Below are positions 11,235 to 56,200 of a stretch of DNA of 64,000 nt, piece by piece (within the stretch, counting starts at the first letter, position 1; each line of letters opens with the position of its first letter). The stretch is from Heterotrichella gracilis (lineage: Eukaryota; Sar; Xanthophyceae; Tribonematales; Xanthonemataceae). Location: the NCBI GenBank assembly GCA_032358255.1, contig JAULBX010011100.1, positions 124,001 to 188,000 of the forward strand, in the 5' to 3' direction. Made by a program: the position numbers and the translations under genes. A model generated the notes under the pieces. That model worked only from the letters and a program-made list of their open reading frames with translations. It searched no databases and was not told the DNA's origin.

Positions 11235-14200
11235 ATGGGGTGGCTGTGGGTGCTCGCTGTGAGCTGGGTGGTGGTGGCACACGTTCAAGCGCAAGGTATG
11301 GCACTCAGCGGCGGCCAGGCGCCCAGTTGGTTTGGATAACTGTTAGGTTGCCGATCCAAGCTCGTGCATGGCGAACGGGGTATGGTGGTTTCGCCACTGT
11401 GGGTCTCAACTAATTGACACATGCATATGAAATACATGCAACTGCACAGAAGTCCTGCGCCACGCACGGCTGGACATACGAGGGAAGGGTTCAATCCACT
11501 CTATATATACGACAACCAACTTCATACGAGCTGCTACGGTCCCACTGTCACGCTTTTTGTTCTCGGTTCTTCGCGCCAGCAGCCTGACCCTCGCCAACCG
11601 CAAAAAGCACCCATGCCCCACCACACGGTTTCTCCCCGGATCGAACCCCTTCGCTCACCAAACACGGCATTGTTCGCACAGGCGTGTGTCCTAAGGGCAC
11701 CTTCCACAACCCGGACAGCGGAGGCTGCGCCCTGTGCATCACAGCACAGTGCAGTGGGACCAACAGCTCGCACTGCTCTCCCACCCGGGGGTGCGAAGGC
11801 TGCCCACAGGAGAACGCCAAAGTCATAGGGTACATAGGTGCGGCATAGGGACTGCACTAACGCTGTAAGCAAGGCACAGCGGACTGCCTGCAAACACTGG
11901 ATCACATTGTTGTGGGGGGGGACATGTAGGGCACCCCTGGTACCCCTACCTGTGTGGCACTGGCTAAACAGAGCCTCGCCTTGCATTGCCCATATGGCAG
12001 TGCTTCAATATATGCTTGTAGCCACCTCTTCCCAGTAGATCCTCCCTCATCGCCACTCGTCTGCACTCCCCTTGTCTGCACAATGCAATGTGTCAGGGCG
12101 AGGCCCCATAACTACGCCGCCTGCTGCCTGCTGTGCACTCAGCCCTTCTTGGCACTTGTTGGCAGCCATTCGTCACACCATAACACCCCTTGGGTTCCCT
12201 CCTCAACAGGCGCAGGCGCCCAGACCGTCTACCCCCCTGCGGTGTGCCAAAACTGGACCACCGTCCCCAGCCTGACCGGCTGCGCGGTGGCACTCTGGGA
12301 CAACACGCGCATGGGTTGGCACTGCCGCCAGTGCGACCCCAACTTCACCCTAAACACAACCCTACACAGCTGCACGCACCACCCCGCGCGCCTGCCGACC
12401 GGCTGCGCTGAGGGCTGCGAGTGGTGCGGGCACGAGGGGTGCATCCGGTGCGCCCAGGGGTACCACAAGCGCTACCTGGATGCGCGGCTGGAGCACGACG
12501 GGTGGTGCGAGAACTGGCATTTAAAGGGGAGGGACTTCAAGTCTGCACCCACCCAGTGGGCGGCGCAAGTGAACGAGTCGGTGCTCCCGCTGCCTGAGTG
12601 AGTGTTGCTGTCGGGCGGGGGGGATGCGGTGGTTGGGGTGGAGCCGGTGGGGATGGGGTGGTTGGTGGGGCGGGTGGGGCGTGTTCTGGGATGGGTGGTT
12701 GCATGGGCTGGTGCGGGTGCGCCCACAGCTGCCCTTGCAAAGTGCTTGCTTGCAGTGGAGTTAACACTGATGGCTGCCCTGGCATGCACCGTCACCACCA
12801 AGGCCCCGCAGCGCTCCCGAGGGATGGGCGGTAGCGTGGGCTGCTGCACCTGCACCTGCTTTCAGCAAGGGCACACAGACAGCTGCTCTGGCGTGTGCAC
12901 TGGCACCCATACCCAACTCATACTACTCTGCGCCCTCTTCCCTGCACGTGTGGCGCACCCGCCGCGGCCTGCACTGCCGGGGACAAGAGTCGCCACCCTC
13001 CCCAGTTGTTGCAAACCCTGTTGCTCCTCTTCCTGCAGGTACCCTCGCCCGCAGCTGGTGCGCCCTGACTGGCTCAACCTCAATGGGGTGTGGCAGTGGT
13101 CGGAGTCGCCCTGCACGCACCTGTCAGTGCCGTGCTTGCAGCAGCCGCCATTCGGCATCACGCTGCCAAACACGGTGCGCCATGCATATGCGCATAGCCT
13201 GCATGGCATGCCCTTAACCCTAAATCCTAAACCCTGGAGGGCAAAGTCTTGAATTACGCACTCCCTTGTACCGCTTGGCCTATCACATCTCACCTCCTGG
13301 AGAAGAAGAGCCAATCGGAATTATGCACCCTATGCTGCCACCTACCCAGTCACCATCCCTGGGCTGTGCCCTGAGCTTTGCGCAACCTCATCAGCTAGTC
13401 TGAACCCTAAACCCTAAGCAGCCTGCAACCTCATCAGCCACCCCAATCCCAACCAACCTGGCCCTCTTCCCCTGCAGATCCTGGTACCTTTCCCGGTGGA
13501 GGCCCCTCTCTCCGGCATGGCGCTCCCCTGGCGATCCATGTGGTATCGGCGCACATTCAGAATCCCGCGGGGGTATGGCGGGCGGCGGCTGATGCTGCAT
13601 TTTGATGGCGTGGATTGGCAGGCACGGGTGTGGGTGAATGGGCAGCTGGTGGGGCAGCACAGGGGGGCGTACAATAGGTTCTCGTTTGACATCACGGATG
13701 CTGTCAAGGTAGGGTTTAGGGTTTAGGATGGTTTGGGTGTGTGTGTGGGTGGGAGGGGGGAGGGGGAGGGGCATTGTGGTACATGCGAGGGGTATCCATG
13801 TGGGGCTGGGTAAGGGTGAGGCTGCATTCTGATGAGGTAGCTTGGCGGTTGGGGCGGCAGCACCGGGAGGGGGGGTGGGGTCAACAGGGTCACGTGCGAC
13901 ATCACAGATTATGTTCAGGTAAAGGGTGTATGTGTGTGTGGTGGTGGGGCCCTGAAGGCTGTGAGGGCATAGCGATGCACGTGGTGGGATTACGCATGTA
14001 GGGCGGCAATGCGATTGCATGTGGCAACCTTGCAGTTTCCCATATGGGTCAGATTGACCGGTCAATAGTATCCTGACGAAAAATCCCCAGATGTAGTAAG
14101 TGCAATCTCCATATGCACTTCCATGCAATTCCCAAGTGTCATGAATATACCTCCCTGCGTGTTTGTTGGTTTGATCCATGGCGCATCTGTGCTGTTCCTC

Positions 14201-17200
14201 GCGGGATTTCAGCAGCATTCAATCCCATCTGACGGTATTTGACCACATTTGCAGGATATCAAGGGGGAGCAGGAAATTGTGATGTGGGTATGGGACCCCA
14301 CGGAAGACCACTCTGAACACCACGTAAGTCACATCTCCACCAGATCTTTGGCTGCATTTGTTGCTGCAAACTGCCGCAATTTATTGATACCCTGGCTGCT
14401 TACTAGGTCCCCATGATCGAAATGAAACGAGCGCGAACCACACCAACCCTTGATCCTTGTCCCAAATGCTGAACCCTGTAAATCGTAAACCCTGAACCCT
14501 AAACCACGCAGGTGTGGCGGCCGGCAAGCAGGGCGTGAACCACACCAACCCCATGCCCCTAAACCCCAACCCCCCAAAATCTAACCCTAAACCTGAATCC
14601 TAAACCTCCGCAGGTGGCGGCCGGCAAGCAGCGCGTGAACCACACCAACCCCATACCCTAAAACCCAAACCCCCATTCTAAACCCTAAACCCTGAACCCT
14701 AAACCCCGCAAATGGCTGCCGGCAAGCAGCGCGTGAACCACATCAATCCCTGACCCAAAATCCTAAACCCTAACCCCTGAACCCTAAACCCCGCAGGTGG
14801 CGGCCGGCAAGTAGCGCCTGAACTACACCAACCCCATGCCCCTAAACCCCAAATCCCTAAAACATAAACCTGAACCCTAAACCCCGCAGGTGGCGGCCGG
14901 CAAGCAGCGCGTGAACCACACCAACCCCATGTCCCTGACCCCCATGTCGGGCATTTGGCAGCCGGTGTGGCTGGAGCCCCTGCCCCAGGGCCACATCACC
15001 CGCCTCCAGCTCACGCCTGACCTGGACAGGGCACTGCTCAGGGTCACGGTGTTCAGCGGTGGGCCGGGTGCCAAGGCGGCTGTCAAGGTTGCGGTCAAGG
15101 TGCGCTGGGGAGTGGTTTTGTCTGGAGGACTTTCATACATCAGTCATATATCAGAGTCTTTCTGGTTTTGTCTGTGCTTGGCGCCAGCGCCATGCCGCCA
15201 TGTGGATACAGATGGGGGCAGGGGGATATTTACATAATATAATTGAAAGTATTAGTCAAGGTGGAGACAAATGTGCCACATTGGCATACTCACCTGTCAG
15301 GTGATAGAGACAACACCGGTGCGCTGCTGTATGGCCTCTCCTGTCTGGATTGAAAGCAATCCCCACCCCTTGACACCTGCTTGGTCCCCAGGTGATGGAT
15401 GGGGATACGACAGTAGCAACGGGGACTGGGTCCCCAAACAAGGAATTCGAAATCTCCATCCCAACCCCCAAACTTTGGACCCCCGACAGCCCCTTCCTGT
15501 ATGGCCTCCATATACAGCTGCTGGAGCGAAGCCATTGGTGGCACCTTAAACCGTCGGATGCAGTGGAGTCGTATTTCGGGATGCGGAAAACGCACATTGA
15601 GCACCACGGGGATTTGAACACCACCCGCCTGCTGCTCAACAACGAGTTTGTGCTGCAGCTGGGGCTGCTGGATCAGGTGGGTGCCTGGTTAGGGTTTCCA
15701 GGTGTTGGCTAGGGTTTGTGTGAGGGTGGACGATGTGCACAGCAGGTGCTCCAATGATACACAGTTGCAGCTGTACCTTGGTGTAATGAGCGGCCTGCTT
15801 AGTACAGTAGACAACTTGCAGCACTACAGCCCAATTCAGCAGCCAGCCTTGCACCCGCGGCGTTACGCTGTCATGTCCTGCCACTGGCGATACCATTTAG
15901 TTGCCTTGCTCCATAGAAGGACTGCTGGGATAAGTCAGCCCACGTGTCCCATGGGGCAAACACGGCACTCTTCCCTGCAAAACCCTGACAAAACCCTTGC
16001 CAATGCAGGGGTGGTGGCCTGACGGCGTCTCTCGAGCTCCCACTGATGACTCGCTCATGTTTGATATCCTAGCAGCCAAAAAGCTAGGGTTCAACCTGTT
16101 GCGCAAGCACATCAAGGTAAATACCCTAGGTAAATGGGTCCCCGTCAGCCCATGTCCAGCATGCACTACGATCACAGGCAATTTTTTTGCAACGTGCATA
16201 GGGATGTTGCTCATTACCTGGTGTGTGATAGTGGGTGAAGGGGGTGGGCAGCGTTTTGGTTTAGGGTTCAAGGTTTGATGGCATGATGCTGTGTGCTTGA
16301 GGTGGAGCATCGTCTGCAAGTGCATATGCGCATGGGCAAGGTTCCGGCAGCTGCTAGAATTTGATGTGAACCCTACTTCCTGGCCCTGCAGGTTGAGAGC
16401 GATCGGTGGTACTACTACTGCGACACCCTGGGCATGCTGGTGTGGCAAGACATGCCGTAAGTGAAACCCTGACCATAAACCGCGCACAGCAACCCAACCC
16501 AGCACCAACACCTTATGCACTGTTTGCTCAACACAATCGTGGTACGTGACACACTGCACTTGAAGTCTCCTTTGTGGGTTGGTGTTGCGATCAGCTGTTC
16601 CATGACCACGAGGAAGCTGCATGCTGGTGGCATGTTGATGATGTGACTATGATTAGAAACAATACGTGAAATATAGAAACAAAAATAAAAGTAACCGTAA
16701 ATGATATAGGGCCGGTCCAAAACTGCCGTTGCTGTTGCAGGTCCTTTGCCGCGTTTGCAGAGGACAAGCTGACGCCCAGCGAGGAGGATTTGGCGCAGTG
16801 GACATCTGAGCTGAAGGACATGATTGCGCAACGCAGGAACTCCCCCGCTGTGGTGCTGTGGATCGTAAGTGTTTCCCCCTTGCTTAAGTATTTATCCTTG
16901 CTTTGGATCGTGAGTGTCTCCCCCTGGCTGTGAATCGTATGTGTTTCCTTCTTGCTGTGGATCGTGAGTGGTTCTCCCTTTGCTCCTTCTCGGTCATCTG
17001 CAGCTCTGGGAACAACAGCAGCAATGAAGTTGCATGGCTGTACCAAATTCCATGCACAGCCAAACACGCTCAGATGGATCAACACGCATGTTGCACAGGG
17101 ACTGTGCGTTTCTCAAGGTCTTTTACTGCACGTGATAGGCTGCTTCAAGCGTTCACTGATACCCCTGCTCATGATGCAGAAACTACCCTGAAACCCTTAC

Positions 17201-19174
17201 GCATCCTGCAGTTACACCTTGCGTGCCACAGGACTACCCTACAACCCTGTATCGCGGTGCAGAAATATCCTTAAGCCCTTGCTTGTCCACCAGCACTGCC
17301 CTTAAGCGTCCACCCGAACTAGCCTAACAAAACGCTTGCGCATGGTGCAGACATTCAACGAGAACTGGGGGGCATTTGGCAACGACACCATCCCCAACCT
17401 CGTCAGGGATTTGGACCCTTCCCGGCCGGTGGACGGAAACACAGGGGTCCCGTTGACAAACGTGGGGGATTTCGTGGATGAGCACCCGTACGTGCTATCT
17501 CCCCATGCATGTCCCAGTGAGGAATCCCTCCGAAACCTGATCCTTTGATGCCCGTATGCACTGGAAGGAATGGTAGATAAGAAGCCCTGGGGTGCTGTTA
17601 CTGTTTGCCTGCATGTGCATGCGCGGGAGTGCTCATGGCGGCTGTGGTGTGCTCACGCAGCTGCCCATGCTTGCGTGGGCAGGTGCGCAAGCACCCCCTC
17701 TGCAGTTACTGTTGCCCTTGTGGCCTGCCGCCGCCCACCTCTCCCAATCCCACCTACATAGGCCAAGTGCCACATCAGTTCCCCCACAATGTCTGCTGTG
17801 TGTGTGCCCTGAAATGCATGAGCACATTGGGAACCAAAACCCTAAATGTCCTATTGCCCAGGACCATGATTCAAGTATAAATATTGCATTGCACATGCGA
17901 AACGCGGAAAAGCAGATGCGCCGAGTGGCCGCTTTCGGGGCAGCGGGACAGGGGAACAGTGCTACGCAGGCGCCCTGCTGGGTGCACGGAAAAGAATGCC
18001 GAAAGCTGTATACCAGTCATTGTCACATGGCGCCAACTCGCCATTGATCCCTCCTTTTCCCCCCTTTTTGCAGGTATGTAGGCCCTGATGCGCATTACAT
18101 GGCGGACCACCGGGCGTATGTCATTGGGGAGTTTGGGGGCCTGGGGTTTCAGGTACAGTACTGTGGACTACAATACTATGAGCTAAGGTGTTCTGAACAA
18201 TATCTTCCATCAGTCAGTTTAGAGGGCTTTGGTACCTGGTATACTCAGCTGCATGCATTCAACCGACATGAGGCCCTTAATCCTCATCAGGGACTGTTAG
18301 TTCCCGCATGCATCCCATCCACATGCACGCACTGGCCGGGTTGCATCTGGTCGGAATGCATCTTGCAACCGCAATGTAGCCGGATGGCTAGCCATCATCG
18401 CAAAAGCGGCGCCAATGCGTCCTATCCTGGCACTCTGGATATCGTACCCTGTGCTGGGATATGTGTTCCAATATAGCTTAGCAGCTTTGTTTTGGCCCCT
18501 GCAGATTTGGGAGCATTCCATGGACCCCCGTGGCGAGTGGGGCTACCAGTACTCCTACTCCTCCCAGGAGCTCACCGACAAGTACCTGGGGCTCATGGAT
18601 AAGCTGGAGCTGCTACTCATGGTGAGTACCACTGTTTTATTTTATTCTGGAGTTAAATAGAATTTTATTCTCACTGACAAGTACCTGGGGCTCATGGACA
18701 AGCTGGAGCTACTACTCATGGTGAATTATCCTCCATTTTTCAATTTTAAAGAACCTTTTTCTCACAAAAAATGACCTGGGACGGATGGACAAGCTGGGAG
18801 TTCGCACTCATGTGAGATTCTCTAAATACAATCCTGTAAATTTTTCGCAATATGCATTTTGGTACAATATTCCATTCATGCCCAATGTCTCTCACTGCGT
18901 TCCTACTTTGCAGCACCACGGCATCAGCGGCTCCATCTACACACAGCTCACTGACACCGAGGCTGAGTCAGATGGCATGATGACCTTTGACCGGGCGCTG
19001 TTCAAGGTCAACGCCACACTAGTCGCCGACAGGCATCGGCAGCTGATCAACCTCTCCCGATCACTCAACAATCTCGAGGCAGGGCCGGCGTACCGCGCCA
19101 CCCACCATCAGCCACCGTCGCCGCCGACCCCACCCCCCAGGCCGCCAATGCCACCACCACCGCCACTCACATAG
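11235..19174 (+). CDS. Secreted glycoside hydrolase family 2 enzyme with Cys-rich N-terminus and Pro-rich tail
   Basis: Fifteen exons (11235-11295, 11682-11837, 12210-12597, 13039-13174, 13478-13708, 14255-14323, 14890-15099, 15392-15676, 16009-16116, 16392-16456, 16741-16864, 17351-17487, 18074-18152, 18505-18621, 18914-19174) join without a phase break to 808 residues. Residues 1-20 are a signal peptide. Residues 21 to about 200 are Cys-rich with CxxC pairs (GCEGC, CRQC, CEWC, CIRC), a domain I cannot name. From about 205 the protein is a GH2 fold: jelly-roll ([24 protein letters not shown]), middle immunoglobulin-like domain, then the TIM barrel. Catalytic residues are visible: acid/base Glu615 in TFNENW and nucleophile Glu676 in GEFGGLG. 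The family cleaves beta-galactosides, glucuronides, mannosides or glucosaminides; specificity is not clear here. The last 30 residues are mostly proline, as in algal wall glycoproteins, so the enzyme is probably exported to the wall. Confidence 0.88.
13175..13477 (+). repeat. Telomere-like CCCTAAA units in GH2 intron 4
   Basis: Degenerate CCCTAAA units lie at about 13211-13235 and 13401-13418, on the coding strand and upstream of the exon 5 acceptor. They are interstitial, not chromosome-terminal, since complete genes flank both sides. Confidence 0.75.
13709..13925 (+). repeat. Copy of GH2 exon 5 3' end with its donor, plus TTTAGGG run
   Basis: The real donor at 13709 opens with GTAGGGTTTAGGGTTTAGG. 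About 205 bp further, 13845-13925 repeats the end of exon 5 in degenerate form: a Gly-rich block, then CGACATCACAGATTATG where the exon has TGACATCACGGATGCTG, then a second GT donor-like site. The copy is out of use in the model because the frame is not kept. The spacer is very G-rich. Confidence 0.7.
14482..14889 (+). repeat. Tandem array of GH2 exon 7 acceptor and exon start, spaced by CCCTAAA units
   Basis: Four extra copies of the acceptor plus the first 45 or so bases of exon 7 precede the real exon at 14890. The copies begin near 14512, 14614, 14711 and 14797, a period of about 90-100 bp. Each contains GGC(G/T)GCCGGCAAG followed by the CGTGAACCACACCAACCC block and ends in degenerate CCCTAAACCC repeats. 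Copy 3 has lost the acceptor G (GCAAAT), copy 4 carries an in-frame TAG, and copy 1 is shifted. Only the last copy continues into the full exon. Four AG acceptors in similar context therefore compete with the real one. Confidence 0.9.
16857..16985 (+). repeat. Tandem copies of the GH2 exon 11 donor site
   Basis: The real donor region CTGTGGATC/GTAAGTGTTTC at 16856-16875 is followed by three degenerate copies near 16904, 16931 and 16958 (TTTGGATCGTGAGTGTCTCC, GTGAATCGTATGTGTTTCC, TGTGGATCGTGAGTGGTTC). The period is about 28-30 bp. Each copy keeps the last codons of the exon and a GT donor, so four donors lie in a row. Confidence 0.85.
18571..18815 (+). repeat. Three tandem copies of the GH2 exon 14 3' end and donor
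   Basis: The exon end CTCACCGACAAGTACCTGGG with its GTGAGT donor (18571-18626) recurs at 18671-18726 with about 90 percent identity by eye, ending ATGGTGAATT. It recurs again, much degraded, at about 18761-18815, ending CTCATGTGAGAT. The unit is about 100 bp and includes AT-rich intron start sequence. Confidence 0.88.
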
Positions 19175-19212
19175 TGTGAGCAGCTGGCATGAAAACCTAC
19201 CTTAGGTGATGT

Positions 19213-19415
19213 CAACATATCAGCAGCAAGACAAAATTCACCATTCAGTAGTCTTGCCAGGTCAGCCCAAGCAGTGCTGTGAAGGGGGAACGGGAGGAGG
19301 AGGAAGGGTCAGCGGCAAGACAAAATCTCACCATCCAGTAGTCTTGCCAACCGTCAAGTCAAGCCCTAGCAGTTCTGTGAAGGGGGAACAGGGGGAGGAG
19401 GAAGGGGAGGGACAG
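19213..19415 (+). repeat. Tandem duplication in the GH2 3' UTR
   Basis: Two copies of a unit of about 100 bp start at AGCAGCAAGACAAAA (19220) and AGCGGCAAGACAAAA (19311). Each runs through TAGTCTTGCCA and GTGAAGGGGGAAC to GGAGGAGGAAGGG. The stretch gives an open frame of 122 codons, but this follows from repeat composition and not from a domain. Confidence 0.8.
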
Positions 19416-19728
19416 CTGACAGTGATACCATCCATGGCACTGCTTGGGCACAGACGCCACTATCGCCAACTTGACATTGAGGAAGGCGGTACAGCATGGC
19501 GCGCTGGTATGGAAAGTATTAGACAAGGCACATATTTATTTCCAATCACGTTCACCACACGACAGTATCTTTAGCCATAGCAGCAGCAAGTTTCATCCCT
19601 TTGCGGACGCCATCACAGGTAGAGAAACACCCATGTCCATTCGCTTCCTTTGTTTTAGCAAAGTTTGGATGGCAACTGCATTGGCAATTTCCTGTGCAGC
19701 CATAGTGTGCCCCACACCCTAGACCCCA

Positions 19729-19733
19729 TGTAA
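19729..19733 (+). terminator. Putative polyadenylation signal TGTAA (GH2)
   Basis: TGTAA lies 554 nt after the GH2 stop, beyond the UTR duplication. I see no closer copy. Confidence 0.3.
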
Positions 19734-22793: not shown

Positions 22794-23425
22794 TTAGCTT
22801 CCTCTTACGGCTTTGGGTAGTCACATTCTTGCTAGGAGATAAGGGTTCAAGGTTCAACAACACTTGGCAAGCACTGTATGGAAATGCCTCAACAACCTGA
22901 ACAGCAGCACGCCACTAGCCTTGCCAAGTAGCATATGCACACGTTCTTATGAGTATCTCAAGTCTGCAACTAGCCTGTGTGCGGTGCGTCAAGTGATATA
23001 CCTGTCCCAACACGGTGGCTTACAACAAAAACAGCCAGCTGGGCGTTTATTAAGACCACTGGAACCACATATCTCTATATTTTGCGTTAATATTCGAGAA
23101 CTGGGCTCCAGAGACCCCTTTCTAGCAGCCTTCCTACTCTTGACAACCGTATTGCTTCGTGTTCTTTGCAGCAACAGTAGGGATCTAGGTGGTTCGAATG
23201 CATGCATGCATCCCACAACAAACACACACAATGCATGCGTAGGCTCTCTTCGTTGAATGTGCTGCGGTAGTAAATAAACACTTCACTAAAACAACGCATA
23301 TGATTCAAATACACTGTCATTAACGAAAGCGACACTCTCACATACCGCCAAGACAGTAGCTCCCAGCTGACAACTGCTGCTCAAAAGGGACTGACTGCAC
23401 CTTGTATTCGTGGCAACACGTCTCA
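22794..23425. promoter_or_regulatory. Divergent promoter region between TadA and DUF2358 genes
   Basis: 632 bp separate the two outward start codons. Both upstream regions lie here; no specific motif is assignable. The small open frames inside have no recognisable features. Confidence 0.45.
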
Positions 23426-27077: not shown

Positions 27078-30000
27078 ATGTCAGTGCAAAGGGTGGACTC
27101 CAGTGGAGAGTTTGGGGGGTAGGTTGGCAACTGCCTTGCATCCAGTTGTTTGAGTTGTCACTGGGTATTGCTTCGCTGCAAGACATGGACATGCCATAGA
27201 GCCCAGACGTCCAGACACCTTGTACACCCTCTGCTGTTACTTCTCAGGTGCACGAGGTGTTGAGCTACAGTCGAAGGTCCTTATTTCGGTGGTGGTATTA
27301 TTCATAGGCAGTGTGTATAAGTATTATTGGTTGCACCACAACTTTTATCCATAGTACCCATGGCATCCCACACCCACCCAGCCCCCCCTCATCTGATACC
27401 TGACACCCTTCAGGTTGCATTCTGATGGCACCATCACACCCCGCACCTCCACCAATGGTCCCTCGGGACTGTACCCCCAGCTCCACGCCAGCGCACAACC
27501 AGTGCCTTCATCCCAGCTCAACACCAGCGCCAACACCAGCTATGGCCAAGACGTGCGCCACGCGTTCAGTGCAGTGCCCTCGGTCAAAGCACAGTGGACG
27601 GACCGCTGGATGAAAATTATGGTCGTAGGCGAGTGCGGCATGGGCAAAACAACCTTCATCAGGAACTTATTTGCCTCCTACACACAGGTATGATACTCGT
27701 CAGCAGCATCCATGGCAGGCTGGTCTCTGGCCCCAGCATATGTACCCTGCACTATCTCAGTACTTTTATCACTTGATTTGCAACTGCCAGTGTATCCATT
27801 TGCTGGGTTTAACAATGTATCACTGTCCACAGCACCACATATCCCGAGGATGATGCGCCCTTCCCCAGCCACTTGAATTCCATCCTCCCCTTGACTGCAT
27901 GGCCTCACTCACGGAACCTCGACCCTTGCCTGTACAAGTCCCTCTCTGACCATAGCCACTGCCCTGCCTGCCAGACGGCTGACCTCACTGTGCACGACGC
28001 ATCTGCTGCCACCAGCCAGGGGGTGTTCCTGCGCGCCCCCGAGGAGCTGTGCACCGAGATTGTGGTCAAGGACGAAATGCAGCTCATCGCCTACCACTAC
28101 CAGGTGAGGTGGCCAATTGTGGTTACCGTAGTTGGTGGCATGTTGGACTCAAAATGGAGGGGGGAAAGGGGTATGGGGTAATGAAGCAGCAATGCAGCCA
28201 GATAAGTAGCCTGCCGTTCATGCCTCCAGCTAAGCAGCCCTGTGCAGCATGTGTGGAACAATGCTGTCTACCCATTGCGCCGCATGGCATTGGGTTTGGT
28301 ACCTGTCCTGCTGCTGTGAGTGTCTCCTGGCAGCGTGGATCATATCTGTGACAGCCTGCCAATCACCCACCATGAATAGATTACAACCTTCTTGGTTATG
28401 CGTACCATTTTTGGATGCATGCATTATTCATGCGCTCATCATGGGAATAGGAATAGGAATTTCATTCAACCTATTCACCTAGCATGGCTGATGGCCAACC
28501 CTGAGTGGCACCACTGTGGCACATGTGCAAGATACCGTATCGATTACCCGTACCATGTGCTGATGCATGGAGTATCCATGGTTGCATTGCACCTATTCAT
28601 GACCTAGCCCAGCTGACGTCAACCCTGAGTGGCACGACCCTGAACGGTACTGTGGCACAGGTGCAAGACACCCCTGGCTACAACGACGACGTGCAGCTTG
28701 AGACAGGCATGCAGGACATACTGGACTACATTGAGGAAAACAACTGGTGAGGACAGCACATAGGGTTGGGAGCAACCTGAGGTGTATCATCTGTTGATCT
28801 TGCGCAAGCACATGTTCTGCTGGGTCAGACTGTTTAACTGGCTGTACTGCTTGACCACTTGCATGCATCCCAGTGGGTTGTAAAAACTTGTGAAACGTAC
28901 TTATTTGCCTCGCACCCCACCTGCAGGCGGTACATGTCAATGGAGCAGGACCCACTGCGAGGGGGGCCCATGAACCGATTGCCGGACCCCAGGGTGGACG
29001 CATGCCTCTACTTTGTGCCCCCTCACAGGCTGAAGCAGGTGGGTGCACAGGGCGGCGGGGTGGACTGCAACTAGGAGAGTGATGTTGGCCCGCTTTGGTA
29101 TAATGGAATTAACGGGATCCCAGGAGGGACGCATGCCTCTCTATGCATGCATGATAGAGCATACTATCTCGTCTCTCCTGACCCACAGGCTGAGGTAGGA
29201 GGGTGCAAAAGGGGTTATGTACTTCTTGTGTCCAACTTTTGGTAGTGGACCCTGTCAACATTCCATGTAGCATGCATAGTCATGTCACCAGCCCTCCCTG
29301 ACCCCTGGCGTTGCTCCACCTGACCCTGGTCTATATTGCGCTCATTAGCTCATCGGAAGCCCTGCCATTGCGCCATTGTGTGCAGGTGGATGTTGCGTTC
29401 ATGACTCGACTGGCTGAGCTGGTGCCCGTCATACCCATACTGGCCAAGGCGGATTCAATGACCACGCATGAGCTGGAGGAGTTCAGGGCTAGGGTGCGTT
29501 GTAAACCGTAAACCCTGAGCAAAACCCTCTGATGCTTGGGTGCCAATGAAATGTCCTGCTTCATCTTCATCGTCTTTCCTGGTAATCCGGGCAATTGGTA
29601 TGAATTGCAGCAGTGCATTTAAGGCATCTGTGTACATCCATAGCTGTGACCACATGTACCTGCACACTGTTTGTTGTGTGCTGTAGGTGCCCTGCATGGC
29701 ACCCTCTGGAAAAATTAAATTATGCAGTAAATTCCATGTAACAAGCTTGCACAGCGCTTTCCAAAATAACCACCGTTGCATTGATCCAATGTCGTTATAT
29801 TACAAAACATTAAATAATTAATCTTCATAAGAAAATCCAAGCATTTGTTGTGGTGTAGGTGCGCTCTGCGCTGCACTCTGCCGGCAAGGGGATCATCCAC
29901 GAGTTTTCCGAGGACGCGCTTCGTGAGGCGGGGTCCCAGCCGCCCTTTGCAGTTATTGCAAGCAATGTCATGGACATGGCGGTGGGCGGGTACGCGCACA

Positions 30001-31433
30001 ACCCTCGCAAAACAACATCCTGCTCGTGCATGCGGCTCCGCCAGGGTGGCCAAAGGGGTATTCCGTCCATTTGTGGGCGTGGAGTGGTTTACATCATGTA
30101 TTTTGGCAGAGCAGCCAGATCAGCGGCTCATGGTCTCGCAACCCCTCCCCACCCCCCACAGCCTCTGTCACTACCCTGTGCACAGCCAGTCACCTGCATT
30201 GCATGACCAGCCCGGAACAGGAGGAAAAATATCACCTTCCCTTCCCTTTCCTTATTTTTTCTAAAGAAACTTCTTCCTTTCCAGCTTCTGGCCTGTGCGG
30301 CGCTACCCCTGGGGCGTGTGCGAGGCGCTGCGCAGCCACCACTCCGACCTGCCGTGCCTGAAGAAGCTGCTGTTTGAGGTGGGGTACGAGGAACTCAAGC
30401 TGGAGACGGAGCGCAGGTATTATGGCTTCAGGAAGGAGCAGCTGCTGCAGGGGAAAGGTGCGTGGGGTGGGGTGAAGCTGGGTGTTTGAGGAGGGTGTTT
30501 GAGTGCTGGGAGGGTGGGTGCTGTGGTGGCGGCAGGTGGGGGTATGACAAGCTAAGATGGAGACAATGCAAGGGGGCTAAGGGTTCAGAAGGGGCAGCTG
30601 CTGATGGGGGGTATGGGTGGCAGGGTGGAAGGGGCTTGGGGTTTGTGGATGCGTGGGCAATGCAGGTCAATCCCTGAAAATGCTGGGCTTTGAAACGAGG
30701 CGCAAGGTGCCGAGGGCCACAGCTAAGCAGTTGGCCTCGATTTGCTCCCGTGATTCCGCACTGTTGACTCAATCGCACCTGTGGTTGTGCAGAGCGCAGC
30801 CCCAAGGATACCAACCCTAAACCCTAGACCTGTGGATGTGCAGAGCCCAGCGCCAAGGACACCACCCTTAAACCTAAACCCTAAACCCTGTGGTTGTGCA
30901 GAGCGCAGCGCCAAGGACACCAACCCAGTGCAGAGGCAAGCGCTGTATCGCAACCGGCGGCGCCGGCGCCAGAAGTGCGGCTCGGGGTTCCAAGGGTTCC
31001 TGGCTAAGGGCCTGGCTCGGGTGGCCCTGTTTGGGGCCATGTATGCCGTGGCGCACATGCTGGCCAACAAGACCTCCCCCGGTGCACAGCTCAGCAAGGT
31101 GCGGTGATGTGGTTGGTGGGTGGGGCTGGCGCTCGTAATTAATATTCATTACACCTATACAATTTCCTTTAATATACAATAACCCAAAAAAACACGTAAT
31201 AAAAAAAGCTAAAGGTGACCCTATAAATATTGGCGCAGGCTCGAAGCGCACTGCACGCCAGGGTGGAGCAGCTCAAAGCAACCTGCGGCAAGCAGCAGCA
31301 GAAGCAGCTGGGCAGGTGGCTCAAGCCAGGGGCGGAACCCCAACCAGCGCCAGAGCCGCCTGCGCCTGAACCAGAGCCTGAGCCGGAGCCTGTCCCTGCG
31401 CCGCCACCAAAGAGGAGAGGCTGGTTCTCGTGA
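27078..31433 (+). CDS. Septin GTPase with C-terminal hydrophobic segment
   Basis: Exons: 27078-27118, 27414-27687, 27833-28103, 28613-28746, 28927-29038, 29386-29493, 29859-29989, 30285-30457, 30666-30749, 30902-31098 and 31239-31433, about 570 residues. G1 is GECGMGKTT (about residue 86), G3 is DTPG in VQDTPGYNDD, and G4 is AKAD. The septin-specific RRYPWG motif is in exon 8. The exons for the G domain are in phase except the 27687/27833 join, which is off by two bases. After the G domain come a basic stretch (YRNRRRRRQK), a hydrophobic helix (RVALFGAMYAVAHMLA) and an acidic, Pro-rich tail of EP repeats. Septins form filaments on membranes at division sites; the hydrophobic segment may anchor or bind membrane. 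The end of exon 9 (weak donor GTGATT) is chosen by phase only. Confidence 0.85.
28485..28670 (+). repeat. Duplicate of septin exon 4 start and its upstream intron end
   Basis: 28480-28543 (CTAGCATGGCTGATGGCCAA, then ACCCTGAGTGGCACCACTGT and GTGCAAGATACC) is a degenerate copy of 28603-28673. The latter contains the real acceptor at 28612 and the exon start with ACCCTGAGTGGCACGACCCT and GTGCAAGACACC. The period is about 120 bp. The upstream copy lacks part of the codons before GTGCAAGA. Confidence 0.75.
28985..29215 (+). repeat. Duplicate of septin exon 5 3' end
   Basis: The exon end GGACGCATGCCTCTACTTTG, then CTGACCCACAGGCTGA-like sequence and a GT donor, recurs at about 29125-29205. There it reads GGACGCATGCCTCTCTATGC and then CACAGGCTGAGGTAGGAGGG. 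The copy lies wholly in intron 5 and is interrupted by a TGCATGCATG insert. Confidence 0.7.
30775..30901 (+). repeat. Tandem copies of septin exon 10 acceptor and start with CCCTAAA spacers
   Basis: Two extra copies of the acceptor plus exon start (TGTGCAG, then AGCGCAGC and CCAAGGA) precede the real exon at 30902. They begin near 30793 and 30842. Each is followed by telomere-like repeats (CAACCCTAAACCCTAGACC and CTTAAACCTAAACCCTAAAC). The layout is the same as at GH2 exon 7. Reading through copy 1 from exon 9 gives a stop at the first CCCTAAA unit (30818-30820). Confidence 0.88.
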
Positions 31434-48670: not shown

Positions 48671-50214
48671 GAGAGGGGGAGGCGCATTGGTGTCCAACAC
48701 TCTCTTAGCAAGAAACAGTCAGATACGCAGTTAGTCCTACATGCATTGCGCCAACCAGCCCTGTCCTGGCACCGCACGGACATACAGGGTATCCTGAGGT
48801 GAATTTTTTTAAGTGGCAGCCCGTGTTGCTCAGCCTGATTGAGTGTGCAAACTGTTGCAGCATACCTGGCAGTCCAAGTTAGCATGATGTAAGAACATTG
48901 CTGCAAACAAATGCTGGGATGCCAGCTTAAGACACTGCAGCATGCTTGTTGAGGACAAGTTTCGGCTTGCCTTGTGGCACCACGTTTGAAATTCAAACCA
49001 AGTTGGCGCCTCAGCAATTTTAAAGGAGTGTTGGCCAGCAGAATCACCTGTTGTGTGGTGGTACTTGGACAATCACCTTCTTATTTTTCACGGCCCAGGC
49101 TAGTTTAACTCAGTCACTGGCAGTGGGTGCACCTCACATTGAAGGTACACATAAAAGTGAGCCATCGTAACACATGACTTGTTGTAGACGTTTTGCGATT
49201 CTGTACCACTTCTCACTCTGGTGACCTTTTCTTAAGAAAACTTGAGAAGAATATTGGTCTAGACAGTACTAACGTCAGTGTTTATCAGGATTCACACCTG
49301 GGTCAATTGAATTCTGTTATCTGCGAGAATGATTTACAAGCTCATTCATACTCAGGTATTAGTGTAGTACTATCAGTGCATTCTATTCACCCGGACATTC
49401 TGTGTACAAAAAAAGACTGTAACATTTACTAGAGATGCAATACGCCAAGTTCTTCGAATGAATCAATACTGGTTGTGCTACCATGGATATCCATGAGGCG
49501 CAGACTCTGAGCACTATGCATTGATGCAGTGATACTACAATTTTAGGTTCAAATAAATGCTGCAGCGCTAATAATTCAGGACATCGTTGCCATTGAACTT
49601 TATGCCCACGGCTGCATTGACTGCTGCTCACCACATTTTCAATGTCAGTTTTGCTGTAAATGGCGTGCAGGATCGTTGGATTGATTTTGCACTGCCTCTG
49701 CTAGCAAAATAAGCAAGCAAATAGTACATTATACCACTAAATTATTCCCCCATAACAACAAATCGTTCATGCCCAAACCCCGAAACTCCTCTTGAAATAC
49801 GGGAACCCAATACCCAATTGCATAAATCCTATCTCTAGCAATGCACAATTGTGGCACATCCACACATACCCACACATCCAGCCACTTCATTGTTCCCCAG
49901 ATCTAATCGACCATGTACCCCCCAAGCCCCACCTTCACTCGGCATCGTCCCCGCTAAGTGCTGCCGCCCGTGCTGTGCAACCAAATCGGACACAATTGCA
50001 GCCAAATAAGCAAATTTGCTGTCATTGTTGCAATACATGACGACGAGGTGCGTGCTGCCCCCACCCTTGCCAGGCGCAAAACCCTCCACAGAAAGGCGGG
50101 CATTGCAGCACAACGAGGCGCCTCACCCTGGCACCACGGGTGTACGATTTACCACAACAGGCTGCCCCCACTACCCGGCCCCAAACCCCAAACCCTAAAC
50201 TCGCCGCGCCACCC
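48671..50214. other. Convergent intergenic region
   Basis: This lies between the membrane-protein gene (+) and the isoamylase gene (-). The central part (about 49050-49780) is clearly AT-richer than the rest and holds only short frames, so it may be an old insertion, but I see no terminal repeats. A CCCCAAACCCTAAAC telomere-like stretch lies at about 50183-50200, just past the isoamylase stop. Confidence 0.4.
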
Positions 50215-53200
50215 TCACTTCGCCACAAACATGACGGATGAGAAGGGCTGCACTCCGTAGCGGGCCCCCAGCTTGCTGGGCGCATCTGGCGCAATGTCCT
50301 TGGGTGCCGCCAGGTTGGTGTCCACCACCCTGTGCCAGGCCTTGCCCGAGGGGGGCGAGGGCAGGGGGGCGTCGATCATGAAGCTATGGGAGTTGAGGGC
50401 GATGTACAGGCTGCCGCCGCCCTGGCCCCTGCCGCAACAAAAGGGGGTGTGACACAGGGTTATCGGCAAGGGTAAAACCCCAGCTAAGGGTTTCAGGAAC
50501 TCCAAAAATGTACATGGCTGCCGCCGCCCGGCCCCTACCGCAAGAGGGGTGTAACACAGGTTATCCAAAAGAGTAAAAACCCAGGTAAGGGTTTCAGTAA
50601 CCCTCAAATGTACAGGATGCTGCCATCCGGGGCCAGGGGGTTATAAGACGGGGGTCAGCCCCAGTGGTTTAGGGTGTATGGGACGGCCACGAACGCAAAC
50701 CCTAAACCCTCATCCCCACGCACCTGTCGTGGTATGTGAAGGCCAGGAACATAACCCTAAACTCTAAGCCCTACCAGTATGCGCAGGCCAGGAACGTAAA
50801 CCCTAAACCCTCATCCCCACGCACCTGTCGTGGTATGTGAAAGCCAGGAACCTGCTCTCCAGGTTGTCCCACTGGTCCTCGTGCCATGTGATGTCCTGGG
50901 GAGACAGGAACTCCTCCCTCCCCAGCAGGGGGTGGGAGCGCCGGAACTTGATCAGCAGGCTGCGCAGGGAGTAGGATACAGGCATTAGTAGGGTTTAGGG
51001 TAAATGGGTTGGTAGGGTTTGGGGTTTTGAGGCGCGGCGGAACTTGATCAGCAGGCTGTGCAGGGAATAGGATACAGGCATTAGTAGGGTTTAGGGTAAA
51101 TGGGTTGGTAGGGTTTAGGGTTTTGAGGCGCGGCGGGGCTTGATCAGCAGGCTGCGCAGGAGTAGGATATAGGCATTAGTGTGGTTTAGGGTAAATAGGT
51201 TGGTAGGGTTTAGGGTTTTGAGGCGCGGCGGGGCTTGATCAGCAGGCTGCGCACAAGAAATGGGCAGACTGTGCACAACGGGGATTGAAAGCATGTATGT
51301 TATTACTAAAACCGACACAAGAATAGGGTGCACTATTACCCAAAACCATTTGAGGGGCAATGGGGAATTCTTGCCATTCCAGCATAAGGCGCATGCGCGC
51401 GTTACATCGCCGATGGGCGTTGATGTTTTCAGCATCACCCCAATACCGTCCCACCCGTCCACGCCATCCCCACATGTGACACTGTTGCCATGTTTGACAC
51501 AATCCCCACAGGTCCCATCCCATCTTTACGCGCCAGCTGGGGATGCACAGCGCAGCCCAGCGCCATTACCTGAAGAAGCGGAAGAGGTCGTCCTTCCGCC
51601 CGCCCAGCGCATCCCAATCGAAGCTGGTCCACTTTGCGTCGTGGCCGTACCAATTGTTGTTGCCGTTGCGCGTGGCGGCGTACTCGTCACCTGCGCCACA
51701 AGACAAAGCACACCGTTGATGTTAAACATCTCCACGTACAAATTTGCACTGCGTGGGACCTGGGTGGGTGTTGGCGGCGTGCACATCACGTATGCCATAA
51801 CCACTGCAAGGGCACTGCACACCGCCACCAGCCACTTCCCAGCCCCCACCTGCTAGCACCATGGGCGTCCCTCGGACACCATCAGCAGCAGCATGGTGTT
51901 CTTCATCTGGCGGTACCACATCTTACACATGCACGCTCCCACTTTCATCCCACCCCATCCCCACCGCCAGCATCACCCACAAGCAATGCAACACCCCCTC
52001 CCCCTCCGCTCCCCTCCCACTTTCCATCACCAACCTGCCAGCACCATGGGCGTCCCCTGGGACACCATCAGCACCAGCATGAAGTTCTTCATCTGGCGGT
52101 ACCGCATGCCCTTCACGCTCCCATCCCCCGTCTCGCCCTCCACCCCGCAGTTCCACGAGAAGTTATCATTACACCCATCCTTGTTGCCCTCCCCGTTTGC
52201 GAAGTTGCGTTTCTCGTTGTAGGACACAAGGTCATAGAGGGTGAAGCCATCGTGCGCCACGATGAAGTTGATGCTGTGGTAGGGCTTGCGGTTGTTGGTG
52301 TGGTAGAGGTCTGCGGAGCCGGCCAGGCGGGTGGCCAGCGCAGGCTTCATGCCTGCATCCCCCTTGATGAAGCGCCTGGGGTACAAGGGAGGAGGAATGT
52401 GAGTGGGATGAGATGAATCCTCTCAGATGGGGTATTGGGGAAGCAGGAGGGTTACGCGAAATGGTGCACGGTATTGTAACATGGAGCCAGACCATTGGCA
52501 GCAAAGCTGCATGCAGGTGGCAGCTGCGGCCATGGCATGGAAAGCGGGAGGCATTGGAGCAGATACGCCCCCACTCCCCTCCTACCATCCCACCCTCCTC
52601 ATGCCTTACTCTGAGTACTTTTCGCTCGACTGCACCTACACAACCCACTTGGAAAATGACCCAAATTCACCACCCACCTGACGTCATCCCTGTACTTCCC
52701 GTTCCACTCCGCCCACACATCCCAGTTGGGGAAGGTCCCCACTTGATACGCGCCGCAGTCCCAGGGCTCCGCAATCAGCTTGGTCTTACTCAGCACAGGG
52801 TCCTTGGCTATGGCTGCGATGAGTGGGGGCCGGGCCAGCATGTTGCCGCGGGGATCCCGGCACAGGGAGGTCGCCAGGTCGAACCTGAAGCCATCCACGT
52901 GGTACTCCTCCACCCAGCTGCAGGAGGGGTGGGTGAGGGTGGTGAGAAGGGTTGGGATTCAAAAAGGCCTTATCATGTGTGTAAATAGCTGGCGCGGGTG
53001 GGGGGGCTGCGGCGGGGGCACGCTGGCGGGCGTGCAGGTTGATATCAACTGCAGAGCGGGCACAGTAAGGTTGCCAGGTCAAACCTGAAGCCGTCCACGT
53101 GGTACTCCTCCAGCTGCAGGAAGGGCGGGGAGTGGTGGTGAGTGGAGGGTGGGAGGGGAGTGGGACTAAAAAAGCCCTTCCATGTCTGTATATATTTGTC

Positions 53201-56200
53201 AGACTAAATTTAGTAGAATTTACAAACATTTTAAAACAAAACAATGATTCCACGTACTGCTTGAGCGAGTCCACGATGAGCTGCAGGACCACCGGGTGGT
53301 TGCCGCTGACTGTGTTGCCGCAGCCGCTGTAGTTGAGCAGCTTGACGTATGCTGCGGGGTCCATCTGGTAGTAGACCGAGGAGTCGATGCCGCGGAAGGA
53401 CAGCATGTAGGGATCGTCATCGGCGCCTGGGGACCAGTAAATGATAAGCGGGGTTGCGCAGGGTTACTGAGGATGTGTGTCGAGTTCTGAGTGGGGTCAT
53501 GTATGGCTCATGATTCACAATATGAGTGGGGTGATGGATGACCAGGGTCCATGTGGTAGCAGACCAAGGAGTCGATGCCGCGGAAGGACAGCATGTAGGA
53601 ATTTTCATCGACGCCTGGATGGAGGAGTGTGGACCGTGATCAGGGTTTGATCAGTACTGGATGAGAGAAGGTCCCGATTGCCATAGGCGCCTGTGGAAGG
53701 CATGATGCACATGCGCCGGGTGATGCTGGTTGTGGTTTGGTGTTCAATGCACTCACGCACCGCCTGCAGCCTAGCTCCCCCCCCCCCCCCCCCCGCACAC
53801 CACAGACCTTTCACCATGTGGGCCTACACCACACCCAACCTTGATCCCAACCCATCAGCACCCAGGCCATCCCTACCGCATGCATAAGTCCCAGCCCCAG
53901 GAATCCAAATCAGCTCATGGGCGCTCTGAAGCTACGTATGACATGCACATGGCCCATTATCGCATGCACCACTGTCTGCGCCCCCCCACCCACATCCACG
54001 CACCTTCCACAGTGTGGTTGTACACCACATCCAGGATCACCTCGATCCCCTTCCCATGCAGCGCGCGCACCATCTCCTTGAACTCCCTCCCCGCGTTCAC
54101 CGGACCCAGCCCCCCTGACCCGAAGCGGCTCATGGGCGCCATGAAACTGAGGTGCGAGTATCCCCACACGTTGACCATGTGATCCCGGGGATTGGGCAGG
54201 CGCTGGAACTCGAGCTCGTCGTACTCAAACACAGGCAGGAGCTCAATGGCGGTGATGCCAAGCTCTGCAAGGTGGTCAACCTGTGGCAGGGCAGGGTTTC
54301 ATGCGATGAACATGGGTGCTCTAATTACTGGATGATACAACCAGTTGCCAAAAACTAGGGCAGAAATGCTAAAATATAGATTCGGCAGGCCCTGGATCCC
54401 GAGCTCGTTGTATTTAAAGACAGGCAGGAGCTCAATGGTGGTGATGCCAAGCTCAGCCAGGTGGTCAACCTGTGCATGGGTGATATGCCTGTGAACCACT
54501 GATTTGCTAGCGCCGGAATGACGTCAATCGTGAGTTTTCTTATGGCACAGCATGTTGCAGGGTTTAGGGTTTGGGGCGGTTTTGAGGAGCTCGATGGCGA
54601 TGATGCCCAGCTCTGCCAGGTGCACCTGTGGCAGCATTAGCATTAGCCTCTGCATGCAGGCATCCCTTTGCGCAATGCTGTTGTGCATGGTTCATGCATT
54701 TCAGTCACAATGTGTGCAATGCCCTTTGCCTGGAGATACCCTACTGGGATGCATGTGCTATTGAATAGGGCTACAACTGGGTTTGGGGTAGAGCGTTATG
54801 GCGCCAGATTCAGCTGGACAAACCATGTGCATGTAAGAATTGCAATGGGAATGGCGTCTCACCTTTTCGGCGATGCCCTTGAACGTCCCCTGTGCGCCTG
54901 GCGACACCCCACTGGATGCATCCGCTGTGAAGGAGCGCACCGGGCACTCGTACACGATCAGGTCCTTGAAGGCCACGTTGGGGCGCTTGTAGTCCGCCCC
55001 CCAGTCAAAGGGCTCAGACTCAAAGTCAAAGGTGCCGCGGAACACGCTGCCCACCTGCGGGGTGAGCGGGTGGGCGGTTAGGATAGATTGGCGGTTAGGG
55101 TAATTTGGTGGTTAGGGTAGTTTGGCGGTTGGTGGGCCTCGCACTGCATTGCCTTGGCCTTGGCCATGCGCGTCTGAGCTGCAGTGGAAAGGTGTAAGCA
55201 GTGCCAGGACAGGGCTGAGAGGTGCCATGCAGGCTGCTGGTCTGGCTGTATTGCTGAAATGCATGTAGCCAATCAACAGTCTGTTGCCTGGCAGAGGTGG
55301 TGGTGCAACCCGAGACAAGCCCCACCTTTGGTACGAAGGCCTCAAAGCTGTCCCTGACGCCAAACGTCCTCCGCCCCGCCACAAAGGGCGCGTAGGGGTC
55401 CAAGAGCACGGTCTTGGGGTCCCACCTGTGCAGCGTTTCCCACCCCCCCTTCCCCGACACTTTGTATCCATACAGCACCCCAGACAAGGGCAAGGCAGCC
55501 AGCGCCACATGCCAGTTGTTGCCCGAACGCGTGCAGGGGAACTCCCCCAATGGGTTGTTGTCCCCGTCGAAAACGCAAAGCTTGACTTCTGTAGCATTTT
55601 CTGAAAACAAGCTGAAGTTGACCCCGTCCCTGTCAGGCAGGGCGCTGGGTCCCAGGGGACTGGCACTGCCTACAGCAGGACGATTAGGAGAGGTCAGAGG
55701 TTGTGTGTCGCTTGGCAGGGCAAAGATGCAAAGACCTGGTGTTAAGGCACCAAGCAACCGTTTTGGTGAGTGCCTGTGGGATGGACGTGTGGCTTCCCAG
55801 ATCTTGGCTGCTAGCACATATGCATGCATGATGGCGGGTAGCAGCCCACTCACCCGGAGATGATCTGAGCGTGGGTTCGGAGACGTCCTGTACTTCTGGT
55901 TGGGAAAGAGTCTCTTGACTAGCCCGGCCAACAAGCCTCCCTGTCTCGTGTCGCAGCTTCTTCACGGCCCGTGTGGGAAGTGCCCTCCCCTACATTCGGT
56001 AACCATGCTCAGAAAAAAACGCCATGATCAGACACTGCAAGACCAATTGCAGCAGCAACAGCTACGCATAATGAAATAATATAACTGGGCGGTCGTTTGC
56101 ATTTCTCGACCAAGCCCAGACCGTGCAAGGCACCATTTGGTGGCATGTTCACCTTTTGGATTGGGCCCTGTGCGATGGCCCGTGGGACATGGCTAGACGA

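Follow-up and report, generated by a model that had tools for sequence, protein, structure and literature searches.

Copies of exon ends in adjoining introns are concentrated at exon–intron boundaries in Heterotrichella gracilis

The window analysed here, a whole 64-kb stretch of contig JAULBX010011100.1, raises the question of why the ends of exons recur in the introns beside them, and of what kind of process might place them there. Pfam identifies GH2, septin and isoamylase domains in its three predicted genes, and the initial annotation had counted at least 14 copied boundaries among these. At a score of at least 30, a copy of an exon end is found in its own intron at 15 boundaries (three in the GH2 gene, four in septin and eight in isoamylase; Table 1), with two more cases at 29 and one, involving a doubtful terminal exon, at 26. 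A score of 30 is reached by none of 485 shuffled donors and none of 485 shuffled acceptors, the shuffled queries being slightly shorter. The exon models are those of an ab initio, self-trained gene finder, and the isoamylase exons alone were compared with solved proteins; when the isoamylase protein is assembled with each duplicated segment used once, its alignment with chloroplast isoamylase 1 covers almost the full length (E = 4e-164). The real exon does continue from an end copy, as had been remarked, but this is nearly automatic for a copy residing in an intron and is also imposed by the masking rule.

Table 1. Exon boundaries in the window with copies in the adjacent intron (positions are those of the window)
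Gene	Boundary	Span	Strand	Score	Features
GH2	donor 13708	13685..13925	+		diverged copy with GT at 13919; identified by eye, weak case; copy annotated as exon (13841-13918) by the gene finder
GH2	acceptor and exon start	14398..14944	+	114	extra copies with CCCTAAA-like spacers; real exon start 14890; first, partial copy at 14398 (by eye)
GH2	donor 16864	16854..16978	+	34	copies with period 45
GH2	donor 18621	18571..18812	+	93	extra copies ~18670-18720 and 18770-18812
Septin	acceptor 28612/28613	28460..28672	+	42	upstream copy
Septin	exon ending 29038	28984..29140	+	32	piece copied at 29115-29140, without splice site
Septin	donor 30457	30422..30612	+	34	exon end 30422-30454 copied ~30582-30610 (placed by eye)
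Septin	acceptor of exon 30902	30777..30926	+	70	two extra acceptor copies upstream, CCCTAAA-repeat spacers
Isoamylase	acceptor 50428	50402..50630	-	55	copies
Isoamylase	donor 50824	50676..50851	-	73	real 50777-50851, copy 50676-50750; CCCTAAA-like repeats nearby
Isoamylase	acceptor 50959	50935..51253	-	70	array of period 96, telomere-like sequence in each unit
Isoamylase	donor 52034	51832..52107	-	79	real 52017-52107, copy 51832-51921
Isoamylase	acceptor 52917	52859..53194	-	89	real 52859-52987, copy 53059-53194
Isoamylase	acceptor 53426	53357..53618	-	84	real 53357-53430, copy 53545-53618
Isoamylase	donor 54003	53786..54049	-	36	real 53981-54049, copy 53786-53848
Isoamylase	acceptor 54280	54190..54634	-	95	real 54190-54285, copies 54379-54474 and 54585-54634; real exon consistent with alignment to chloroplast isoamylase 1

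The copying of exon ends within introns is real and extends past the window. A mechanical search of 284 kb of the 68.5-Mb genome recovers 168 local duplications, whereas five shuffled versions give 0.0. A set of 18 loci placed arbitrarily contains 295 introns, of which 48 carry a copy of an adjoining exon end, and 169,731 bases of arbitrary loci hold 41 distinct junctions. Removal of low-complexity pairs from the 168 leaves the 146 considered below, although some other counts took other subsets. An artefact of assembly or gene finding is exceedingly improbable: the self-trained models do over-merge genes (3.5% intergenic), but the copies differ from one another by a median of 8.5% and so are not assembly errors, the isoamylase exons agree with solved homologues, and the uncorrected annotation leaves the intron-internal class at just 11 of 146 pairs. 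A mixture of two genomes in the assembly was also considered. In a principal component analysis (PCA) of tetranucleotides the loci overlap, but each of the nine in which no duplication was mapped falls at PC1 <0, alongside four loci that have them, and composition and duplication density may therefore be linked. A search of the assembly for a second haplotype (haplotig) with empty sites found none, and the predicted protein of locus L015 has no Pfam family.

Exon boundaries are affected by duplication much more often than intron interiors. The 146 pairs include 87 that span a boundary, 22 that are exon-only and 22 that are intron-internal, of which five are independent; pairs with exon in both copies number 11, and exon-exon pairs three. 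Conceivably, ordinary small duplications fall everywhere, without targeting, and the ones across a boundary persist in recognisable form because one of their copies is constrained exon. No additional process would then be required; events within exons would be eliminated, leaving few such as the three exon-exon pairs, and the neutral drift of the copies and the resemblance of 14 of 56 spacers to decayed tandem flank are both consistent with it. However, models that include such survival and recognition effects predict a very different distribution. A neutral forward placement model gives a boundary-to-internal ratio of ~0.72, from which the observed 87 of 109 departs at p = 7e-16 (p = 4e-27 against the five independent internal pairs), and a second neutral model, based on the observed ages, calls for ~169 internal pairs per 94 boundary or exon-derived ones. 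The intron edges of the units also cluster near splice sites, and untargeted duplication is improbable and strongly disfavoured. Copies are thus not equally common elsewhere, and the general, boundary-anchored process proposed in the initial annotation is supported by this comparison. In the 151 of 168 pairs with a period of at least 40, exon-only copies show no excess over random shifting (15 observed, 19.7 predicted). Affected introns have a median length of 373.5 bp and others 271 bp, which bears out the suggestion that introns are lengthened. Among these 151 pairs, 86 map to a single boundary, with exon in one copy only.

The geometry of the duplicated unit can be described from 70 of these 86 pairs, the divergence, indel and length tests having left out two reverse-order acceptor pairs and short exon parts (70 remain in the length and nonsynonymous/synonymous sets). 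The exon part measures 27 bp at the 10th percentile and 84 bp at the 90th, which corrects the 15 to 80 bp first given, and the intron part is short, with a median of 18.5 bp. The intron-side edge sits near the splice site: the intron part is at most 15 bp in 47% of the 70 pairs, compared with 15% in simulations that assumed unit lengths of 60 to 140 bp. Among the mapped pairs, donor copies lie downstream in 45 of 45 and acceptor copies upstream in 39 of 41. Whole-exon duplication followed by decay, which predicts acceptor copies downstream of the exon, was rejected, only two of 41 being so placed.

Head-to-tail tandem units, as originally described, are not the rule, most copies being separated by unrelated sequence: an unaligned spacer of at least 25 bp is present at 57 of 73 junctions, and contiguous copies are found at 14 of 73. 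Slippage, one of the mechanisms put forward at the outset, fits most spacers poorly; in 56 of the 86 boundary-mapped pairs, used for this test, 14 spacers match the flank expected of a plain tandem duplication at z >3, against three of 56 controls, and a minority of cases may be plain tandem events. Mobile filler was rejected as well, since the spacers mostly share no repeat family: 17 of 59 match other parts of the sample, several of these 17 being telomere-like, and the one spacer tested genome-wide has a single partial relative, in another contig (L037). Microhomology at AGGT junctions, also suggested early on, was abandoned for want of enrichment, exon-terminal AG occurring at 23 of 39 duplicated donors and 246 of 446 others (p = 0.74) and exon-initial GT at 10 of 35 duplicated acceptors and 83 of 450 others (p = 0.18).

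Once formed, the extra copies decay like neutral DNA. In 30 pairs, divergence of the exon part relative to the intron part is 0.65 (0.47-0.91), and nonsynonymous divergence relative to the intron part is 0.44 (0.29-0.68), which matches the prediction for a neutral copy. These values bear on the proposal that the copies are functional, serving as decoy or alternative splice sites or as poison exons under selection. In its favour, putative splice signals are often kept in the copies (GT in 39 of 45, AG in 36 of 41), in 60 of the 146 pairs the uncorrected gene finder assigns exon to both copies, and the nonsynonymous/synonymous ratio in 70 pairs, 0.33 (0.26-0.41), lies below the neutral expectation of 0.46 to 0.52. 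This ratio was the first hint of coding or splicing constraint, which the intron-part clock made unneeded: the ratio is low because synonymous sites change fast, and nonsynonymous change, scaled to the intron parts of the same pairs, proceeds as fast as in a neutral copy. GT and AG are retained about as well as the neighbouring bases, the indels nearly all disrupt the reading frame (36 of 38), and the distances between copies are random modulo three rather than multiples of it. A selected function for the copies is very improbable.

The filler between copies has a telomeric component. The telomere repeat of this genome is TTTAGGG, runs of seven being present in 11 contigs, of which six have the run near their start and three at their end. 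TTTAGGG-like sequence occurs in 14 of 61 spacers, the set comprising the nearest spacer of at least 15 bp at each junction, compared with 56 of the 1,220 intron segments matched as controls (p = 5e-7), in agreement with the early suspicion of a link to telomere-like repeats. Relative to the real exon, the G strand of the filler runs outward in 13 cases and inward in one (pooled, p = 0.006 against control polarity), and exact heptamers run outward in 20 spacers and inward in four. The polarity is 8:1 on the donor side (controls 16:22, p = 0.02) and 5:0 on the acceptor side (controls 14:4, p = 0.54); because unaffected introns before acceptors also lean toward the C strand, the excess is confined to donors. 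Selection against orientations that make the copy an exon could also give rise to this polarity. At the intronic tip of the unit, GGG is modestly enriched (15 of 44, against 18.8% of controls; p = 0.018). Since 47 of the 61 spacers are without telomere sequence, telomerase is not a general participant.

The preferred reading, which falls a little short of being probable, is that the copies are scars left by misrepair of staggered breaks a short distance into introns, involving 3′-end fill-in and occasional extension by telomerase. Staggered breaks (paired nicks) near intron ends would yield long 3′ overhangs bearing the exon end, and these, if filled in on both sides by a CST-Pol alpha-like activity and then joined, would leave the segment duplicated. 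In some events telomerase may first extend a G-rich intronic 3′ end, producing the TTTAGGG filler, and later growth of arrays may come from unequal exchange. The preference for boundaries and the content of the spacers have been measured, whereas the enzymes are inferred. Against this explanation, fill-in alone predicts contiguous copies, the arrangement seen at only 14 of the 73 junctions, and the simple fill-in model does not produce exon-only copies. Moreover, the effect of G-rich outward strands at intron ends looks too small to account for the whole boundary preference.

Penelope-like and similar reverse transcriptases are linked to telomere repeats, and in a second, RNA-templated route telomerase, a Penelope-like enzyme or another reverse transcriptase might copy locus-tethered nascent pre-mRNA into DNA while a break is being repaired. 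Such a route, which is unlikely, would account for the exon-derived copies (87 boundary and 22 exon-only of 146), for their staying within their own gene and for spacers with telomere repeats. The copies retain intron sequence (as much as 174 bp for one donor pair), so spliced RNA was not the template. A pre-mRNA template would leave no trace visible to the tests run, and the side on which copies lie (donor 45 of 45 downstream, acceptor 39 of 41 upstream) is given equally by a DNA model.

Stated more broadly, and more tentatively still, the break-repair reading would describe a process of this lineage aimed at exon–intron boundaries, in which breaks just inside introns and telomere-type processing of 3′ ends (fill-in, sometimes telomerase) keep adding exon-end and splice-site copies to introns, lengthening about one-sixth of introns of at least 120 bp. 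Intron lengthening and distinct mutation at exon edges are open questions that are usually argued from single cases, and by extrapolation this one genome would give thousands of events that can be dated by a clock of their own. Should the preference for boundaries be mutational, DNA breakage or repair would be steered by exon edges themselves, whether through base composition, through transcription or through splicing, and the process would also furnish raw material for alternative splice sites. For annotators, the 60 of 146 pairs in which a self-trained gene finder marks an exon in both copies serve as a warning.

Similarities to several known systems can be drawn. Introner elements constitute a genome-wide intron-reshaping process in which the insertions share family sequence; introns are likewise reshaped genome-wide here, but the spacers, telomere repeats apart, are mostly without shared family sequence. 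Plain slippage duplication differs in its filler, only 14 of 56 spacers here being homologous to the matching flank (controls 3 of 56). In AGGT intron gain, as reported, tandem duplication of an AGGT-containing exon makes a new intron between the exon copies (Rogers; Hellsten; potato, PMC4974935), and both cases show exon sequence repeated in tandem next to splice sites. Here, in contrast, an existing intron grows, the copy bears a splice site of the same type and AGGT is not enriched; the donor-to-acceptor alignment of such a gain is absent from the 86 pairs, chosen for having exon in one copy, which align at the same boundary. One near-fit exists among the 11 pairs with exon in both copies (L020:1223-1284 with 1447-1508).

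When CST-Pol alpha fills in 3′ overhangs, small tandem duplications result, which are described as short, direct and formed at break ends by a complex that also serves telomeres (PMC8355091). The present copies are likewise short direct duplications, whereas those are, as described, filler-free and these have spacers of at least 25 bp at 57 of 73 junctions and are concentrated at boundaries. Telomerase inserts telomere repeats at breaks, sometimes with target duplication; duplication alone reportedly accompanied three of 66 interstitial telomeric insertions in horse, and the authors find the human ones compatible with random placement (PMC2246262, PMC7215372). Duplication is instead the main feature here, with 47 of 61 spacers lacking telomere sequence. 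Nonetheless, the mammalian insertions share with these introns internal telomere repeats, sometimes accompanied by random sequence and target duplication (PMC2246262, PMC7215372), and, as in telomerase-made insertions, the telomere-like filler corresponds to the organism's own telomere repeat, TTTAGGG.

Local duplications are common in the sampled DNA, which comprises the window and 23 stretches (1.3 to 10 kb) from elsewhere in the same eukaryotic assembly (68.5 Mb, 903 contigs), for a total of 283,731 bases. Eighteen of these stretches lie at arbitrary positions, three (L006, L012 and L022) contain earlier pattern-search matches, and two (L009 and L010) reside on the contig of the window. Aligning the sample with itself at offsets of 20 to 400 bases, with a minimum score of 36, yielded 168 duplicated pairs; five local dinucleotide-preserving shuffles gave 0.0 on average. 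Gene models were obtained with a small gene finder self-trained on the sample (672 exons, 652 introns) and re-run with a copy masked wherever the exon of its partner runs on past the duplicated stretch. Because this rule picks which copy counts as real, the initial claim that the real exon always continues from an end copy is partly imposed by the masking.

In the window, 15 boundaries of the GH2, septin and isoamylase genes have a copy within their own intron at a score of at least 30, which is reached by 0/485 shuffled donors and 0/485 shuffled acceptors; the initial annotation had put the number at 14 or more. Pfam upholds the three family assignments, and when every duplicated segment is counted a single time, the isoamylase protein matches chloroplast isoamylase 1 over almost its whole length. 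Across all introns of at least 120 bp, the adjoining exon end is copied at 52/485 donors and 44/485 acceptors (84/485 introns overall). Away from the genes of the window, in the 18 arbitrary loci alone, 48 of 295 introns are affected, which bears out the proposal of a general process. Copies were found for 11/374 mid-intron control segments (shuffled, 1/374) and, for control segments lying 60 to 112 bp into the intron, at 17/299 donor ends and 10/299 acceptor ends; these near-end matches may belong to the same events as the boundary copies.

The affected fraction varies strongly between loci (heterogeneity p = 1.5e-10) and climbs with telomere-heptamer density (rho = 0.73), a correlation to which the fillers between copies themselves contribute. 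Nine sampled loci lack any mapped pair; some of their predicted genes read, to judge by the sequence letters, like housekeeping genes, among them elongation factor 2 and a DEAD-box helicase. All nine lie on the same side of the first tetranucleotide component, and there may be a link between base composition and the density of duplications.

With periods (distances between copies) of at least 40 and low-complexity pairs dropped, 146 pairs could be classed: 87 cross a boundary and have one of their copies in the intron, 22 are exon-only and lie inside an intron, 22 are intron-intron (17 of which overlap an already counted copy, leaving 5 independent), 11 have exon on both sides, 3 are exon-exon and 1 is of another kind. 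When 151 pairs were randomly shifted within their loci, about 34 boundary and 52 intron-intron pairs were expected, versus 84 and 26 observed; exon-only copies were not in excess in this comparison (15 observed, 19.7 expected). The 22 exon-only copies, which lack a splice site, sit in the adjacent intron and are not made by simple duplication across the boundary.

Such a preference might arise from geometry, detection bias and purifying selection together, and all three were represented in a forward model in which duplications are random, exon-breaking ones are removed, one exon copy alone drifts, and the same detection threshold applies. This model expects a boundary-to-internal ratio of 0.72; at the observed ages, 98% of boundary pairs and 92% of internal ones are detected. 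The combination does not explain the observed 87 boundary versus 22 internal pairs (87/109; p = 7e-16), and the scan thus finds copies commoner at exon boundaries than elsewhere, as initially proposed. Under the uncorrected annotation, the internal class amounts to just 11/146 pairs. Only 3.5% of bases are labelled intergenic, so some intergenic DNA is labelled intron, an effect that the model limits through introns of at most 600 bp; in these, 94 boundary or exon-derived pairs were observed, for which the model would call for approximately 169 internal ones.

The mapped set consists of 86 boundary pairs (45 donors, 41 acceptors), with the copy downstream in 45/45 donors and upstream in 39/41 acceptors. 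Where the exon part measures at least 20 bp (70 pairs), its median is 44 bp and that of the intron part 18.5 bp, and the intron part is 15 bp or less in 47%, versus 15% in simulations with units of 60 to 140 bp. Copy edges can be abrupt: in one donor pair, 31 bp of intron match without difference, and then the match ends. Fourteen of 73 junctions are contiguous, and 57 contain an unaligned spacer of at least 25 bp. Since 14/56 spacers resemble the flank predicted by plain tandem duplication (z > 3; controls, 3/56), a minority of cases may be decayed tandem events; 17/59 spacers match elsewhere in the sample, several via telomere repeats. By eye, the periods of the 86 pairs look bimodal, peaking at about 80-100 and 180-200 bp with a dip at 140-180 bp, which may have to do with nucleosome spacing.

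Individual duplications and repeats in the window, in sampled stretches (L) and at G000:C179 in the assembly
Location	Observation	Reading
Window 19220-19406	Duplication of ~89-98 bp just 3′ of the GH2 stop codon; no known exon involved	Rare non-boundary case
Window 60752-60875	Repeat of a 42-bp unit, 3 copies, within a predicted exon	
L015:6652-6724 / L037:713-785	Part of a donor spacer, ~81% identical to a stretch on another contig (C28), inverted	Could be a captured or mobile piece
L020:1223-1284 / 1447-1508	Exon end aligns with the intron end just before the next exon	Geometry that exon duplication leading to intron gain would give
G000:C179:65410-66037	Six identical CCCTAAA...TTGCAGG sites; spacing of exactly 106 bp among the last five	Suggests recent expansion of one acceptor copy

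The copies retain GT in 39/45 and AG in 36/41 cases, about as often as neighboring bases are retained; 36 of 38 exon-part indels cause a frameshift, and copy-to-copy distances are random modulo 3. Comparing real with copied exon parts gives an N/S ratio of 0.33 (0.26-0.41; 70 pairs), below the 0.46 to 0.52 of one neutral plus one constrained copy; the ratio is low because synonymous change is fast. Thirty pairs contain sufficient intron to serve as a clock, and in them nonsynonymous divergence amounts to 0.44 (0.29-0.68) times intron divergence, as for a neutral copy, and synonymous divergence to 1.41 (0.98-2.02) times. Constraint on the copies is not needed, weak constraint being possible, and the fast synonymous change may reflect hypermutable third positions or copies from a diverged allele.

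Eleven contigs contain runs of seven TTTAGGG, which lie close to the contig start in six (there as the complement) and no more than 5 bases from the contig end in three; this identifies TTTAGGG as the telomere repeat. On a sensitive score, telomere-like sequence is present in 14/61 spacers, versus 56/1,220 matched segments of unaffected introns (p = 5e-7), with the G-strand directed away from the real exon (outward) in 13 and towards it in 1. Exact heptamers are outward in 20 spacers and inward in 4; by bases, the two orientations make up 6.5% vs 0.8% at donors and 6.6% vs 0.7% at acceptors. Three of 17 intron-internal spacers contain heptamers, in the C orientation only. In unaffected introns an outward bias is absent after donors (16 G, 22 C) but present before acceptors (14 C, 4 G), and relative to these controls the polarity reaches significance for donors (8:1, p = 0.02) and for both classes combined (p = 0.006), but not when acceptors are taken by themselves (5:0, p = 0.54). 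This polarity could also stem from selection against fillers that make an exon of the copy. Genome-wide counts agree weakly with it: in the 20 bases after GGTGAGT, TTTAGGG occurs 186 times and CCCTAAA 106 times, and TTGCAGG is preceded by CCCTAAA 295 times and by TTTAGGG 215 times (reversed-pattern controls: 15, 9, 2 and 7). At the intronic edge, the 3′ end is rich in G: GGG occurs in 15/44 tips versus 18.8% in controls (p = 0.018).

The origin that best fits these features is error-prone repair acting on staggered breaks close to the ends of introns, which would duplicate the exon end; the main rival is that RNA-templated repair made the copies. Break repair accounts for the short direct duplications, the filler, including telomere filler, and the outward polarity at G-rich ends, but does not by itself explain the boundary selectivity, the exon-only copies or the majority of spacers, which are non-telomeric. 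No empty sites or alternative alleles were found in this assembly. The matches listed, drawn from the open-licence literature and thus not establishing absence from print, include, in the portions available, no description of boundary-anchored duplications with telomere filler. In the break-repair scheme, complementary 3′ overhangs would be filled in by CST-Pol alpha to leave a small tandem duplication, as one study describes for such overhangs (PMC8355091), and telomerase, which we infer to act here, would extend the same 3′ ends and leave telomere filler, much as mammalian telomerase inserts repeats at breaks, sometimes with target duplication (PMC2246262, PMC7215372).
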